IMG/VR virus record: IMGVR_UViG_3300049203_000053 | Coordinates: 1-43,463 of that record | Source of the DNA: a virus | DNA: 43,463 nucleotides | Strand: one strand, 5' to 3' | Part shown: one piece after another, positions 2,330-43,450 of the stretch | Layout of the letters: the number at the start of each line of letters is the position of its first letter | Position numbering within the stretch: the first letter of the stretch is position 1 | Program-made: the position numbers and the translations under genes | Notes under the pieces: model-generated | The model's input: only the letters and a program-made list of their open reading frames with translations | The model's database searches: none | Told to the model about the DNA's origin: nothing

Positions 2330-3035
2330 TCCCGTCGTCGTCCGCTCGCGCACAGTCTCGCGCGACAAGCTGGCGCAGTTCCTGCCGTCGCCAGAGCTGA
2401 TCCGCGCTTACGAGGCCCTGCATCAGGACGTGGCCGAAACGCTGCCCGCGGCGGCCACGCAGGCGCTCGGCGACGCAGAAGACGCCATGACCCAGGCAAC
2501 CACGGCGCTTGCCAACGCGGCCACGGCCCAGGCGGCAGCCGATGCGGCGCAGGCCACGGCCGACACCGCCATCACCGATGCTGCCGCTGCTCAGGCTACC
2601 GCTGACACAGCCCTGGCGGACGCGGCCACGGCCAACACGGCGGCCGGCAACGCCCAAACGACGATCAACAGCCACATGGCCGACACGACAGTGCACGGCA
2701 CGACTGGCGATGTGGTCGGCACGAGTGATGCACAAGAACTGACGAACAAGACGTTCGGCGACAGCGTGGTGATCGATGCCGTGGGCTCGGGCGTGGACAT
2801 CAAGGAGGGGTCCGATGCACGCATGGGCGCTGCCACCCTTGTCGCGGGCACCGTCACCGTCAACACCGCGGCTGTGACGGCCAACAGCCGCATCATGCTC
2901 ACCGGACAGGACAGCAGCGGCACGCACGGAGAGCTGACCATCTCGGCGCGCACGGGCGGCACGAGCTTCACGATCACGAGCACAAGCGCCACCGATACGC
3001 GCTCTGTTGCGTGGATCATCTTCGAGCCGGCATAA
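2322..3035 (+). CDS. gp26-like tail needle, 237 aa
   Basis: The protein starts MADPVVVRSRTV, close to the N-terminal channel-binding segment of P22 gp26. It then has an Ala/Thr/Asp-rich helical stretch (about residues 40-115) with repeated AAxAQATADTA-type units, typical of a trimeric coiled coil. The C-terminal 100 residues form a beta-rich knob that ends in VAWIIFEPA, a tail shared by many phage needle and fibre proteins. In P22-like phages the needle plugs the portal channel and probes the outer membrane at infection. It sits right after the gp10 gene, as in P22. Needle identity is strong; the knob class is uncertain. Confidence 0.82.
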   Translation: MADPVVVRSRTVSRDKLAQFLPSPELIRAYEALHQDVAETLPAAATQALGDAEDAMTQATTALANAATAQAAADAAQATADTAITDAAAAQATADTALADAATANTAAGNAQTTINSHMADTTVHGTTGDVVGTSDAQELTNKTFGDSVVIDAVGSGVDIKEGSDARMGAATLVAGTVTVNTAAVTANSRIMLTGQDSSGTHGELTISARTGGTSFTITSTSATDTRSVAWIIFEPA

Positions 3036-3121
3036 TCGCGGCAACGACCGGCGCAATGCCGATCCGCTGAGACCGTAGAGCCGCCAGCAGCTCGCCAACC
3101 CCGCAAGGGAGTGTTGCTGCG
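3025..3121 (+). promoter_or_regulatory. Leader element B (copy of the element before the portal gene)
   Basis: This stretch shares a 17-base identity, GAGCCGCCAGCAGCTCG (3078-3094), with the leader of the portal gene (36049-36065 region). Matching flanks are CATAAT and CCGCTGAG upstream, and a CCCG..GGG segment leading to the ribosome-binding site downstream. The core can fold as a small GAGC/GCTC hairpin. CATAAT may be a -10 box with TTGCGT 18 bases upstream. It is a promoter and/or structured leader shared by two late genes; its function is unknown. Confidence 0.5.
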
Positions 3122-3601
3122 ATGGCCGAGGCCCAGCGAGAGCCGATCCGAATTGAGCGTCTACTCGATGCGAGTCTCATCACCGAGACCATTCGGCATC
3201 CCCGCATTTACCCACACGTCAAAGACGACTCGTGCCCTCCGGCAGAGTCATTCGCTGCCGTCCTGACGCCGCAGTGCGTCTATGTCGGCGCCTACCGTGG
3301 CGAGCAGTACCTCGGGCTGTTCATGCTGCACCAGCACACGTGCGTGCTGTGGGAGGTGCACACCTGCCTGTTGCCCGACGCCTGGGGCTTCACCAGCCTG
3401 GACTGCACGCGCGCATGCGCCGCCTGGGCGTGGGCAAACACCACATGCCAACGGCTCATCACCGCCGTACCGGATGGGAACGAGTTGGCGCGCCGGTTGG
3501 CGCTGCGCAGCGGGATGACCGAGTACGGGCACAACCCGCGCAGCCTCCTTCGTGGTGGCGAGCTTGTCGGGCAATCCCTCCTCGGAATGAACAGGGACTG
3601 A
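3122..3601 (+). CDS. gp14-like protein (GNAT-like, DUF2824 type), 159 aa
   Basis: The gene lies between the tail needle and the first ejection protein, exactly where P22 has gene 14. The sequence resembles the acetyltransferase-like DUF2824 family: DDSCPP, then YRGEQYLGLFMLH (strand-turn-strand), a central HTCLLP, and a C-terminal segment with NELARRLALRSGMTEYG, reminiscent of GNAT cofactor-binding ends. In P22, gp14 is needed for, or modulates, virion assembly, but its chemistry is not settled. The ribosome-binding site AAGGGAG sits 11 bases before the ATG inside the repeated leader element. Confidence 0.7.
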   Translation: MAEAQREPIRIERLLDASLITETIRHPRIYPHVKDDSCPPAESFAAVLTPQCVYVGAYRGEQYLGLFMLHQHTCVLWEVHTCLLPDAWGFTSLDCTRACAAWAWANTTCQRLITAVPDGNELARRLALRSGMTEYGHNPRSLLRGGELVGQSLLGMNRD

Positions 3602-15953: not shown

Positions 15954-16480
15954 CAGGTCGTCTCGCTTGGCTGGCTACCTGACGCCACGGTCACCGTTGG
16001 CGACTGCTCAGGCGCCGGGGGCAGCAGGCGTGCGTGGCGCTGGATAAGCTTCGCCAACGCGTCGTCCCATACCCCCTCCCATGCCCCCATGCCGCGGCAT
16101 GGGCTGTACGTGGCAGCGGCTTCGATGTCTCGGAGAGCCGCCTGCAGCTCGATCACACGCGCAGCAAGCTCTCCCCGCTGCCGGGCGAGTTCGTCGCGGT
16201 CTGCACGCAGGGCTCGTACTTCCTCGGCTTGCTGGCTATCCCATTCGCCGGCATAGACTCCGGTGCGTGTGAGGTTCGCGTCCGGATGCGACGCAGCAAT
16301 ACCACACGTGATGACCATGTGCGTCAACAGCTTGCACTCTCGGCGTGCGGCGTCGCGCTGGTGAATCGCAACGATGGCCTTTCGCAGATCTGCGGCCCAC
16401 TGGGTTTGCTCCTCGTCCGGCGGGTAAAACTCATCGTGCCGTTGGGCATGCGCTTCGAGGCGCTCTGTGAGGTTGCTCAC
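15953..16480 (-). CDS. Hypothetical coiled-coil protein, 175 aa
   Basis: Begins MSNLTERLEAHAQRH. Residues about 80-115 form a charged coiled coil (QAEEVRALRADRDELARQRGELAARVIELQ). It ends in TVTVASGSQPSETT; a related VTVASxSQP string can be read in the non-coding gap near 19618-19660, suggesting shared gene-end segments. Start overlaps the previous stop by 4 bases. Function unknown; accessory gene of the leftward operon. Confidence 0.7.
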   Translation of the reverse strand: MSNLTERLEAHAQRHDEFYPPDEEQTQWAADLRKAIVAIHQRDAARRECKLLTHMVITCGIAASHPDANLTRTGVYAGEWDSQQAEEVRALRADRDELARQRGELAARVIELQAALRDIEAAATYSPCRGMGAWEGVWDDALAKLIQRHARLLPPAPEQSPTVTVASGSQPSETT

Positions 16481-24549: not shown

Positions 24550-24607
24550 GTTGGTTGCTGGCGATTGGCGGCCCGCCAGCTAAGCCGTGAATCAGGGCGC
24601 CAGTGGG

Positions 24608-24757
24608 TCAGCCACGCAGCGCTGAGCGAATGGCCCTAAGCAGCCAGCCGACAGGCCCCACCCTCTCAACCTCAACAGCCGCAGCCATCTCAATCGAGCG
24701 AGGGAAGGCCTCAGCAAAGGTGCGCGGGTAACGACGAGTAGTAGGCCAATCAGTCAT
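24608..24757 (-). CDS. Small hypothetical protein, 49 aa
   Basis: MTDWPTTRRYPRTFAEAFPR is a conserved opening of a small phage protein seen widely in proteobacterial phages. The start overlaps the upstream micro-ORF stop (ATGA). Function unknown. Its 3' edge contains part of a 19-bp sequence repeated at 31645-31663. Confidence 0.78.
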   Translation of the reverse strand: MTDWPTTRRYPRTFAEAFPRSIEMAAAVEVERVGPVGWLLRAIRSALRG

Positions 24758-26993: not shown

Positions 26994-27544
26994 GCAGCCT
27001 CCTGCGCGGCTTGCTCAACAGATGGCGTATCGAACGAGCGCCCGGCAGAGCGGGCCAACGACAGCAATGCATCCTTGTGGTCGCGCCAGAACTGCAGGGC
27101 GGTCCGGCCGTCCATCGCGACGATGCGCGCGTCATCGAATGCGGCCCACTCGGCAAGCGAGTGCAACTCACATCCGATCTGCATGTGCGCATCGAGGATC
27201 GTCACCACGTAGTGCAATCCATAGAGTTGGATCGGCCGCTTGTTGATGACGATGCCATCGCGCCACGTGGCGCCCGCGAGGTAGGCGTCCGCGAGGTTGG
27301 CGCCCGCGAGGTAGGCGCCCGCGAGGTTGGCGCCCGCGAGGTTGGCGTCCGCGAGGTTGGCGCCCGCGAGGTTGGCGCCCGCGAGGTTGGCGCCCGCGAG
27401 GTAGGCGCCCGCGAGGTTGGCGCGCGCTCCAGTCGCCTTCTCCAGCGCGAACCGAGTACGCAAGCCAGCCTCTATGTCATCAGGCACATCGCACTCAAAC
27501 AGCGCTGCGCCGGTATAGCGGTTGGTGATCTTGTGCAATGCCAT
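26990..27544 (-). CDS. Pentapeptide-repeat protein, 184 aa
   Basis: ATG at 27544 follows GGAG spaced by 6, better than two upstream in-frame ATGs. Residues 42-94 are a run of A(N/Y/D)LAG pentapeptides, which fold as a right-handed square helix. An N-terminal domain with [14 protein letters not shown] and a C-terminal 90-residue domain flank it. The layout is found in phage proteins; some pentapeptide proteins mimic DNA and block gyrase, but with only about 11 repeats the function is open. First gene of the leftward operon. Confidence 0.85.
27271..27420. repeat. Ten tandem 15-bp units encoding the pentapeptides
   Basis: Exactly ten units of gcgYccgcgaggtWg follow one another (27271-27420). 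They differ at only two positions, C/T and T/A, which change residues between G/D and N/Y. Such near-perfect DNA repetition is more than the protein fold needs, and suggests recent expansion or frequent slippage and recombination. Confidence 0.9.
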
Positions 27545-31483: not shown

Positions 31484-31680
31484 CCCCGGCATGTATGGGT
31501 GGCATGTGTGCCCAGCGCGACCACTGCGCTCGGTATCACCAGCTTGACCGCTGGGGTCGGCCGGCAGAGCGCTTGTGCGAGCGCGGCGGGAACGAGATGT
31601 ACCTGCCGCTCAAGCCGGTGAGGGTGGTTCGGCCCTCAACCGTCGCGCCAGTGGGTCAGCCACCGGCGCGGAGCGAATGA
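31480..31680 (+). CDS. Small Cys-rich protein, 66 aa
   Basis: MTPACMGGMCAQRDHCARYHQ has three Cys and two His that could form a metal site. Start overlaps the previous stop (ATGA). Its C-terminus is encoded by a 19-bp sequence, GCGCCAGTGGGTCAGCCAC, also found at 24597-24615. Function unknown. Confidence 0.7.
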   Translation: MTPACMGGMCAQRDHCARYHQLDRWGRPAERLCERGGNEMYLPLKPVRVVRPSTVAPVGQPPARSE

Positions 31681-35896: not shown

Positions 35897-35997
35897 TGTC
35901 GCGCGGCCATACGTGATGCGACCCCAGAGAATCGGCGCAGAGCCGGTGCTGTGAAGGGGGACGGTGCGAGCCCAGCGCAGACCGGAGACGCGCGACA
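35897..35997 (+). ncRNA. Candidate structured RNA closed by a 9-bp stem
   Basis: TGTCGCGCG (35897-35905) pairs perfectly with CGCGCGACA (35989-35997). Inside the 83-base interval are CGGC/GCCG, CCCC/GGGG and GGTGCG/CGCagACC pairings, giving a possible multi-branch structure like a riboswitch or small RNA. There is no convincing open frame across it. It lies between the frameshifted gene and the portal leader. I do not recognise a known class. Confidence 0.45.
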
Positions 35998-36092
35998 TAA
36001 TTAGCTTAAGACGACCCGGCCCCGCAGCCGGGCCCGCTGAGTAGACCCGAGCCGCCAGCAGCTCGTCCGATCCCGACACCGGGGGATGACAG
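35998..36092 (+). promoter_or_regulatory. Leader element A before the portal gene
   Basis: After CATAAT (35996-36001) comes a hairpin CCCGGC-CCCGCA-GCCGGG (36015-36032), then CCGCTGAG, then a 17-base identity with the leader of the gp14-like gene, then CCCG..GGGGGA as the ribosome-binding site. The hairpin has no T-tract, so it is not a normal terminator. Likely a promoter-linked or translational control element used at two late genes. Confidence 0.5.
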
Positions 36093-38171
36093 ATGGCCCG
36101 CCAGTCCAAGCAAGAGCGCCTGCACGAGATCCACCAGGAGGCTCTCTCCGAGTTCGACGACATTCAGACCGCCTACCGCGACGAACGCCTGCAATCACTC
36201 CAAGATAGGCGTTTCTACAGCCTGGCGGGGGCGCAGTGGGAAGGCCCACTCGGGGACCAGTTCGAGAACAAGCCGAGGTTCGAGTTCAACCGCGTCCATC
36301 TGGCGGTTATCCGGGTCGTCAACGAGTACCGGAACAACCGCGTCACCGTCGATTTCACGCCCAAGGACGGCTCACCGGACGACGACCTGGCCGACACCTG
36401 CGATGGGCTGTATCGCGCCGACGAGAAGGCGTGCACAGCGGACGAGGCATACGACAACGCGTTCGAGGAGGCGGCAAGCGGTGGGATGGGGGCATGGCGC
36501 CTGCGGGCCTGCTACGAAGACGAAGACGACGACGAGAACACGCACCAGCGCGTGATGATCGAGCCGATCTACGACGCCGAATCCTGCGTGTTCTTCGACC
36601 TCGGCGCCAAGCGGCAGGACAAGGCCGACGCCAAGCGCTGCTATGTGCTCACGCCGTATCCGATCAAGGCCTACAAGGATGAGTTCGGGGACGACCCGGC
36701 CAGTTGGCCCAAGGCGATTCACCAGCACGAATTCGACTGGTGCACGCCTGATCTCGTGTGGGTCTGCGAGCTGTACCGCGTCGAGGAGATGACCGAGACG
36801 ATCCACGTCTTCCGGGGCCTGGACGAGGACGCCGAGGATATGCGCGTCACCGAGTCCGAGCTGGAAGGCGATCCAGACATGCTCGATGAGCTGACGGCAA
36901 CCGGCTTCCGCAAGGTGCGCGAGAAGAAGGTCAGGCGCCGCAAGATCGTCAAGTACGTAATGAGCGGCGGGAAGATGCTCACTGACGGCGAGACGATACC
37001 GGGCCGGTGCATACCGATCATCGTCACATACGGCAAACGCTGGGTCGTGGATGGCGTCGAGCGATGCATGGGCCATGTGCGGTTGGCCAAGGATGCCCAG
37101 CGCCTGGAGAACATGCTGATGTCGTGGCTGGCCGAGATGGCTGCACGCTTCGACATCGAGAAACCGATCCTCACGCCCGAGCAGATCGCCGGCCACGCGG
37201 CCATGTGGGCCGAGGACAACATCAAGAAGTATCCGTACCTGCTGGCTAACGCCCTGCTGGACACGGCCGGCAACCCGATCCCGGGCAGCAACGCCCCGGC
37301 CGCCTACACCAAGGCCCCGAACATCCCGCCCGCCATGGCCGCGCTCGCGCAGATGGCGACGCAGGCGCTGCAAGACCTGCTCGGCAACCAGCAAGCCGGC
37401 GAGGAACTGCAGCCGAATCAAAGCGGTAAAGCCGTGGAGCTGATCCAGCAGCGCCTGGACATGCAGGTGTTCATCTACATGAGCAACTTCGCGAAGGCCG
37501 TGAAGCGCGGAGGCGAGGTGTGGCTGTCGATGAAGCGAGACATCGTGGTCGAGGATGAGCGGCCCATGAAGGTGATCGACGCCAAGGGGCAGACCTCGCA
37601 GGTCATCATGAACCAGCCCATCTACGACAGGGAGACGGGCGAGACCACACTGAAGAACGACCTTACGAAGGCGGCCCTAGAAGTCGACGTGGATGTCGGC
37701 CCGAGCAGCAGCAGCCGCCGCGCCGCCACGGTGCGCGCGCTCACCGGGATGATGTCGATCACCCAAGACCCGGAGACGCTGCAGGTGCTCAACGGGCTCG
37801 TGATGATGAACCTCGAAGGCGAGGGCATCAGCGAGGCGCGCGAGTTCTTCCGCCGCAAGCTGGTGCGCATGGGCGTGGTGAAGCCGACCGAGGAAGAGCA
37901 GGCCGAACTGGCGCAAGAGCAGGCCAACGCGCAGCCGGATCCGCAGTCACAGGCGCTCATGGCCATGGCCGAGGAAGCCGTCGCCAACGCCGCCCAGGCC
38001 CGCGCAAAGACCGTGCAGACCATCGCCGATGCCGACCTCAAGCGAGCCCAGACCGCGAAGACGATGGCCGAGACGATGGCATCGCACAACCAACAGCAGA
38101 TCGCGTCCGCCGATGCGCTCCAACGCATGCTGAACCCGCCGCAGCAGACCGCGAAACCATCGATGCAATAA
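36093..38171 (+). CDS. P22-type portal protein, 692 aa
   Basis: Length is close to P22 gp1 (725 aa). The N-terminus (QDERLQ.. RRFYSLAGAQWEGPLGDQF) and the EFNRVHLAVIRVVNEYRNNRVTVDFTPKDG motif match that family. A long C-terminal helical barrel-like section (Gln/Ala-rich, MAEEAVANAAQARAKTVQT) is also typical. The dodecamer forms the DNA-entry channel and binds terminase and gp4. It is followed by the scaffold gene as in P22. Confidence 0.9.
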   Translation: MARQSKQERLHEIHQEALSEFDDIQTAYRDERLQSLQDRRFYSLAGAQWEGPLGDQFENKPRFEFNRVHLAVIRVVNEYRNNRVTVDFTPKDGSPDDDLADTCDGLYRADEKACTADEAYDNAFEEAASGGMGAWRLRACYEDEDDDENTHQRVMIEPIYDAESCVFFDLGAKRQDKADAKRCYVLTPYPIKAYKDEFGDDPASWPKAIHQHEFDWCTPDLVWVCELYRVEEMTETIHVFRGLDEDAEDMRVTESELEGDPDMLDELTATGFRKVREKKVRRRKIVKYVMSGGKMLTDGETIPGRCIPIIVTYGKRWVVDGVERCMGHVRLAKDAQRLENMLMSWLAEMAARFDIEKPILTPEQIAGHAAMWAEDNIKKYPYLLANALLDTAGNPIPGSNAPAAYTKAPNIPPAMAALAQMATQALQDLLGNQQAGEELQPNQSGKAVELIQQRLDMQVFIYMSNFAKAVKRGGEVWLSMKRDIVVEDERPMKVIDAKGQTSQVIMNQPIYDRETGETTLKNDLTKAALEVDVDVGPSSSSRRAATVRALTGMMSITQDPETLQVLNGLVMMNLEGEGISEAREFFRRKLVRMGVVKPTEEEQAELAQEQANAQPDPQSQALMAMAEEAVANAAQARAKTVQTIADADLKRAQTAKTMAETMASHNQQQIASADALQRMLNPPQQTAKPSMQ

Positions 38172-43084: not shown

Positions 43085-43381
43085 ATGACCATCAAAACAC
43101 CGCTCGCCCCGTCGTACACCCAGGGTCAGACCGTCACACCAGCCGCTGCCGCAGCCTCCATCACCATCGGCAAGGGCTCAAAAAGCCTCTGCCTGACAAA
43201 CACCGGCAGCAACGTCTGCTATGTGCGCGTCGGCCCGTCAGGCATCGAGGCGACCACGGCGGATTACCCGGTGATTGCCGGTATTCAGACGGTCATTTCG
43301 AAAGACCAGGACCACGACACGCTGAGCTACATCTCGGCCTCTGGCACCACGCTGCACGCCATCCCTGGCGAGGGCTTCTGA
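43085..43381 (+). CDS. Small beta-rich virion-region protein, 98 aa
   Basis: MTIKTPLAPSYTQGQTVTPAAA precedes KGSKSLCLTNTGSNVCYVRVG and ends LHAIPGEGF. Such compact beta proteins occur as head-tail or decoration proteins in podoviruses. Its 3' end lies in the terminal repeat and recurs at 1-57. Confidence 0.7.
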   Translation: MTIKTPLAPSYTQGQTVTPAAAAASITIGKGSKSLCLTNTGSNVCYVRVGPSGIEATTADYPVIAGIQTVISKDQDHDTLSYISASGTTLHAIPGEGF

Positions 43382-43450
43382 GATGTACGCGAAGCGGCGC
43401 CGGCTTTGGCAGCAATTCCTGCTACTGGCGTCTGAGGCTCCGCCACCACC
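43325..43450. repeat. Right copy of 126-bp terminal direct repeat
   Basis: Identical to 1-126. After 43450 the last 13 bases (TCCCCCTCCGCCC) differ from bases 127-139, inside codons that follow a proline run in the 289-aa gene. The break in identity shows that two sequence variants contributed, or that the end is an assembly error. Confidence 0.9.

Follow-up and report, generated by a model that had tools for sequence, protein, structure and literature searches.

A covariation-supported leader element at the start of virion gene modules in P22-like phages

A short leader element occurs twice in the window analysed here (the whole 43,463-nt stretch, positions 1–43,463 of IMG/VR virus record IMGVR_UViG_3300049203_000053), with the same anatomy in both copies (3031–3121 and 35996–36092). 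Judged by sequence comparison across relatives, the element is real and under selection as RNA, and it has the look of an RNA family not described before, carried by P22-like phages of a widespread group. In its 28-nt core, two helices of 4 bp each, GCUG/CAGC and GAGC/GCUC, interleave, and a 17-mer repeated in the window belongs to this core. Most probably, the leader works in cis where translation of the portal/head and ejection-protein modules begins.

Both copies share the order -10-like CATAAT, P1 hairpin, GCUGAG-N6/7-GAGC-CGC-CAGC-A-GCUC, SD hairpin and ATG. The parts that the preliminary description had listed as shared (CATAAT, a 17-base identity and a CCCG..GGG segment running to the ribosome-binding site) were all found in both: the exact 17-mer GAGCCGCCAGCAGCTCG is located at 3078–3094 and 36049–36065, CCGCTGAG at 3064–3071 and 36034–36041, and the CCC..GGG segment, with the RBS at its end, at 3100–3109 and 36072–36085. 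The second leader had been placed at 35998–36092; its parts are present, but its CATAAT starts at 35996, two bases earlier. The gene names portal and gp14-like were likewise borne out. The features, partly predicted, are as follows.

3031–3036, + strand: copy 1, -10-like box CATAAT (from sequence; -10 position conserved across relatives)
3046–3064, + strand: copy 1, P1 hairpin GACCGGCG-CAA-TGCCGATC, one mismatch
3066–3093, + strand: copy 1, core RNA (covariation; model R1, E 3.6e-10)
3066–3069 with 3085–3088, + strand: copy 1, helix S1
3078–3081 with 3090–3093, + strand: copy 1, helix S2
3070–3077, 3082–3084 and 3089, + strand: copy 1, loops L1, L2 and L3
3100–3111, + strand: copy 1, SD hairpin CCC-GCAA-GGG, with SD GGGAG at 3107–3111
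3122–3601, + strand: gp14-like gene (DUF2824/phrog_651), first after copy 1
35996–36001, + strand: copy 2, -10-like box CATAAT (from sequence)
36013–36034, + strand: copy 2, P1 hairpin GACCCGGC-CCCGCA-GCCGGGCC, one mismatch
36036–36064, + strand: copy 2, core RNA (covariation; model R1, E 3.9e-8)
36036–36039 with 36056–36059, + strand: copy 2, helix S1
36049–36052 with 36061–36064, + strand: copy 2, helix S2
36040–36048, 36053–36055 and 36060, + strand: copy 2, loops L1, L2 and L3
36070–36087, + strand: copy 2, SD hairpin CCCG-ACAC-CGGG / ATCCC..GGGAT, with SD GGGGGA at 36081–36086
36093–38171, + strand: P22-type portal gene (match 5e-147), first after copy 2

The CATAAT of copy 1 overlaps the TAA stop of the upstream ORF. 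A gp7-like ejection gene comes after the gp14-like gene, and the scaffold and coat genes come after the portal gene.

The 17-mer repeat alone is weak evidence, since further 17-mers also occur repeatedly in the window and as many near matches to it are found in 5 of 100 shuffles. A near-copy with one mismatch at 16135–16151 was rejected as a chance third copy, having neither the upstream GCTGAG nor pairing partners. The full two-helix topology with the consensus is found at only two places in the window (19/19, against 11/19 for the next best), and the element recurs at gene starts in approximately 170 distinct viral leaders; because of these two results, the element is considered real. The earlier proposals of a shared late-gene element and of more than chance identity are thereby upheld, the latter not through the 17-base identity alone.

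Other repeats were also observed in the window. The 19-nt GCGCCAGTGGGTCAGCCAC is present at 24597–24615 and 31645–31663, 7 kb apart, each copy with GAGCGAATG within ~15 nt after it, and this pair is possibly another repeated leader or a recombination relic. Positions 27268–27432 contain 15-nt tandem repeats of the kind encoding pentapeptide-repeat proteins. An identical direct repeat of 126 nt lies near both window ends (1–126 and 43325–43450), as would be expected if the phage assembly is terminally redundant or closed into a circle.

Relatives were gathered as 80 viral loci via the portal protein and as 43 stretches via the 17-mer, and a degenerate pattern scan yielded at least 119 stretches; approximately 170 distinct elements were kept from the gathered relatives. 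Many of the loci and stretches show the same gene-start architecture, consisting of a -10 box, a hairpin, CGCTGAG, six variable bases, GAGCCGCCAGCAGCTCA, a CCC-loop-GGG/SD segment and ATG. From 5' to 3', the core reads GCUG (S1), AG-N6 (L1), GAGC (S2), NGC (L2), CAGC (S1'), A (L3) and GCUC (S2'), and among elements there is hardly any variation in the AG, the GC and most letters of the helices.

Circularity was avoided by scanning viral contigs with S2 left free and then with S1 left free, with every distinct match tallied. In the S2-free scan, the pairs were GAGC/GCTC (42), GCGC/GCGC (4), GGGC/GCTC (4) and GAGT/GCTC (2), while AAGC/GCTT, GAGT/ACTC, GGGT/GCCC and GGGC/GCCC were found once each; the S1-free scan gave GCTG/CAGC (38), ACTG/CAGT (21), GCTG/CGGC (2) and GCCG/CGGC (1). 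Unpaired matches numbered 18 and 7, respectively; one of them, L272, is a real element with an L2 shorter by one base, and the others stand without promoter or SD context and look like chance by eye. A GCCC/GGGC pair was found in two loci fetched by protein (L067 and L076), and GTTG/CAAC was read by eye in a weak model match (L028). Where real elements change on one side only, the outcome is a G-U pair, a pattern that speaks for RNA over DNA. Over 101 representatives, both-sided changes occur in five of the eight pairs; the double-changed cells, which overcount events because the ACTG/CAGT copies come mostly from close relatives, number 19 versus 1.0 in shuffles, with none of 500 shuffles reaching 19 and slid partners far lower. 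This set was picked for complementarity; that all of its cells (100%) are paired is therefore no independent evidence, which comes instead from the free-helix scans. The compensatory changes in matches from these unbiased scans argue for a structured RNA supported by covariation.

Substitutions in relatives thus keep the GAGC/GCTC pairing that had been proposed earlier. This pairing is real and is half of the structure, as the second helix, GCTG/CAGC, interleaves with it; a plain GAGC/GCTC hairpin was rejected as insufficient because the second helix covaries as well. The interleaved helices could form an H-type pseudoknot or a switch between two hairpins. Judged from known geometry, an L3 of one base beside a 4-bp S1 looks tight for the classical coaxial H-type fold, and the helices may therefore alternate instead of coexisting; covariation backs each helix, and a differently stacked pseudoknot and a two-hairpin switch would be equally compatible with it. 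Nested RNA folding of the two copies gave no unusual stability (z 0.07 and -0.79), nested folding being no test of a pseudoknot. The stretch GCCAGCAGC, which we take to resemble the 16S 530 loop, was dismissed as a clue, as those bases vary in the element while the pairing is kept.

The flanks of the core come in two forms. P1 is present in copies with the -10 about 28–34 nt from S1, begins 7–11 nt past the -10 box, and has a stem kept by 33 different arm pairs, with the score threshold reached in 49% of P1-type leaders against 4.5% of shuffles. P1-less leaders most often have their -10 (GAAAAT, TATAAT and similar) 6–7 nt from S1 (18 and 7 copies), which puts the predicted start of the transcript on the first base of S1 or on the one next to it. 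The promoter-to-core distance therefore differs by ~25 nt between the two forms, whereas the distance to the start codon is kept: from the core end, its median is 24 nt (5–95% range 19–34, n = 163), and all measured leaders except one fall within 14–38 nt. SD hairpins are individually weak, and in aggregate their stem strength is 9.1 versus 7.3 in shuffles (sd 0.39). No convincing -10 was found in a few portal-site leaders (e.g., L010, L011 and L286). Portal-site and GDSL-lipase copies in six loci (L025, L270, L326, L358, L324 and L006) carry a promoter-like TGGTCA-17-TAGACT/TAAACT or TAGAAT, unlike the TACAAT/CATAAT of ejection-site copies, with the same RNA core. A Comamonadaceae prophage-like copy with P1 and core (L243:661–830) has the terminator-like palindrome AGAGGCCTAGGCCTCTTT between the element and the gene, and ~138 nt separate it from the next clear SD and ATG, the start of an ejection-type gene. 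Of the functions suggested in the preliminary description, a promoter is present in predicted, sigma-70-like form, the element being in addition a structured 5' leader; an RNA processing signal found no support, and a shared regulator acting on both copies is possible.

With the model built from the element alignment, every one of 46 records of at least 30 kb yields one copy or two; the records were picked for carrying the element or for closeness to loci carrying it, and a P22-type portal is encoded by 45 of these 46. In the examples read off, single copies are found ~9–10 kb beyond the portal start, at the start of the ejection module, and most two-copy phages have the extra copy near the portal. 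The gene families downstream are unrelated and include cupin/SET-type (phrog_34170 and phrog_12032, the label "cupin" being a reading from sequence), phrog_21390, portal, gp14-like, Asp/Asn hydroxylase, gp7-like ejection, GDSL lipase and 2OG-Fe oxygenase genes. The exception among the records, G023 (L188), has a terminase of the phrog_38 type and matches neither the P22 portal nor the P22 coat; its element precedes a cupin-type and gp7-like ejection module, consistent with module and leader having spread together by mosaic exchange. In several phages, the first gene after the element encodes a short-tail-fibre-like domain fused to a SET-like domain (PF00856, 7e-5; L218:4776–5645 and homologues). 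Bacterial contigs with a convincing copy belong to Roseateles, Aquabacterium, a Comamonadaceae strain and a Burkholderiales MAG, and 399 sampled genomes of one order returned only the known Roseateles copy. Matches in Nocardia, Archangium, Elusimicrobia and Micrarchaeota contigs were rejected as chance, being without promoter or SD context.

A role in translation initiation is favoured because the distance to the start codon is kept while that to the promoter is variable, and because the SD lies in a hairpin; that each genome has one copy or two, placed before late genes of unrelated kinds, was also counted in its favour. Each copy would be a late-gene start cassette, in which a host sigma-70-type promoter would give a transcript opening with the conserved structured leader: an optional 5' hairpin P1, the helices of an H-type pseudoknot, a short SD-holding hairpin and the start codon. 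The pseudoknot may recruit the 30S subunit or ribosomal protein S1 beside the partly sequestered SD; alternatively, a phage or host factor may bind the leader, timing or balancing virion protein synthesis. The analysis shows the sequence, the covariation of the helices, the placement at gene starts and the conservation; the transcription start, the simultaneous formation of both helices and the translational role are what we infer here. Compactness of the leaders would by itself hold the core close to the start codon, which speaks against the translational reading, as do the individually weak SD hairpins, the ordinary nested folding energies and the ~138-nt gap in L243. More tentatively, the element might be a riboregulator that governs virion assembly phage-wide: a leader, bistable or bound by a phage factor, whose head and ejection copies jointly set the timing or ratio of virion proteins.

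The main rival to translation initiation would be, in our analysis, an antiterminator like HK022 put, in which nascent promoter-proximal RNA binds RNA polymerase and gives late readthrough, replacing a Q-type protein. The element is indeed promoter-proximal at predicted late promoters, putL is likewise a structured RNA just past a promoter (PMC9378689), and a terminator-like hairpin separates element and gene in prophage L243. However, put is ~70 nt with two stem-loops, putR is ~270 nt from its start site (PMC9378689), and put has no tie to start codons, whereas the core here has 28 nt and is held close to start codons in all but one of the measured leaders; as the late regions of the window also hold no more terminator-like sites than shuffles do, such a function seems unlikely. 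It is likewise improbable that the structure is a stabiliser at the 5' end of late mRNA, blocking pyrophosphate removal and 5'-end-dependent decay. The predicted 5' end would be paired in P1-less leaders, where S1 starts 6–7 nt past the -10, and P1 copies have their hairpin 7–11 nt past it, yet a plain hairpin would suffice for this purpose and little sequence conservation would be needed, against the nearly fixed AG, GC and helix letters. A protein-binding DNA site common to two late promoters is very improbable: the element adjoins promoters and its arms resemble inverted repeats, but G-U pairs are tolerated, other one-sided changes occur only in matches judged chance, and its position is past the predicted start and tied to the start codon. 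A chance repeat or recent functionless duplication, which the unexceptional 17-mer repeat by itself would allow, is practically untenable given ~170 distinct copies at gene starts, and covariation in both helices has already refuted it.

By searches for known relatives, the element appears to be undescribed. Rfam 15 contains no family matching either window copy at E ≤ 1 or the element loci at E ≤ 2, blastn of three leader queries against cultured phages gave only short irrelevant matches, and no description of the element was found in the open-access literature searched. The model was run on 18 named phage records and gave a recognisable, divergent copy in only one, the virome assembly MW202867.1 (E 0.017), where a GGC/GCC version is located 6 nt past a -10-like box; MW202744.1 (E 0.09) and VPMS1 (E 0.73) are weak matches. 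The cultured phages scanned contain no convincing copy, and the cultured Rhodoferax phage P26218 has no model match. A 28-nt core before unrelated virion genes offers a compact system for studying how virion proteins are switched on and balanced, and the element can serve as a marker for internal late operons. A riboregulator, if true, would be spread over a large set of P22-like phages, most of them uncultivated.

Among known systems, the tisB mRNA of Escherichia coli has a pseudoknot near its 5' end, upstream of a structured RBS, and this pseudoknot binds S1/30S at the sequestered RBS (PMC7708055); the present element would share this arrangement if its two helices coexist. In tisB, the standby site is ~100 nt upstream with a 9-bp S1 and a 5-bp S2 in one toxin mRNA (PMC7708055), whereas the present element has 4 + 4 bp at ~24 nt from the start codon before many virion genes, and its binding of ribosomal protein S1 would be hypothetical; its helices covary, and the predicted transcript start falls on S1 or directly ahead of P1. 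The T4 gene 32 leader is a phage mRNA leader pseudoknot upstream of the RBS, as the present element may be, and is a translational operator, which a 2010 review considered might be the only viral RNA pseudoknot in translational autoregulation (PMC3014915). That operator serves one ssDNA-binding protein gene, 67 nt upstream and with A+U-rich repeats (PMC3014915), in contrast to the present element, which is near the SD and precedes several unrelated gene families (portal, gp14-like, gp7-like, cupin-type, hydroxylase and GDSL lipase). HK022 put is also a structured phage RNA just past a promoter; it is ~70 nt with two stem-loops, belongs to early genes and acts on RNA polymerase, giving terminator readthrough through the beta' zinc-binding domain, with no pseudoknot reported in the portion of the source drawn on (PMC9378689); the element differs from it in size and fold, with its 28-nt core and two interleaved 4-bp helices. 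The late operon of P22 has portal, scaffold, coat and ejection genes of the same families and is reported to have a single late promoter (PMC8022706), and the predicted internal late promoter, with the element before the ejection module, is therefore a departure from it.
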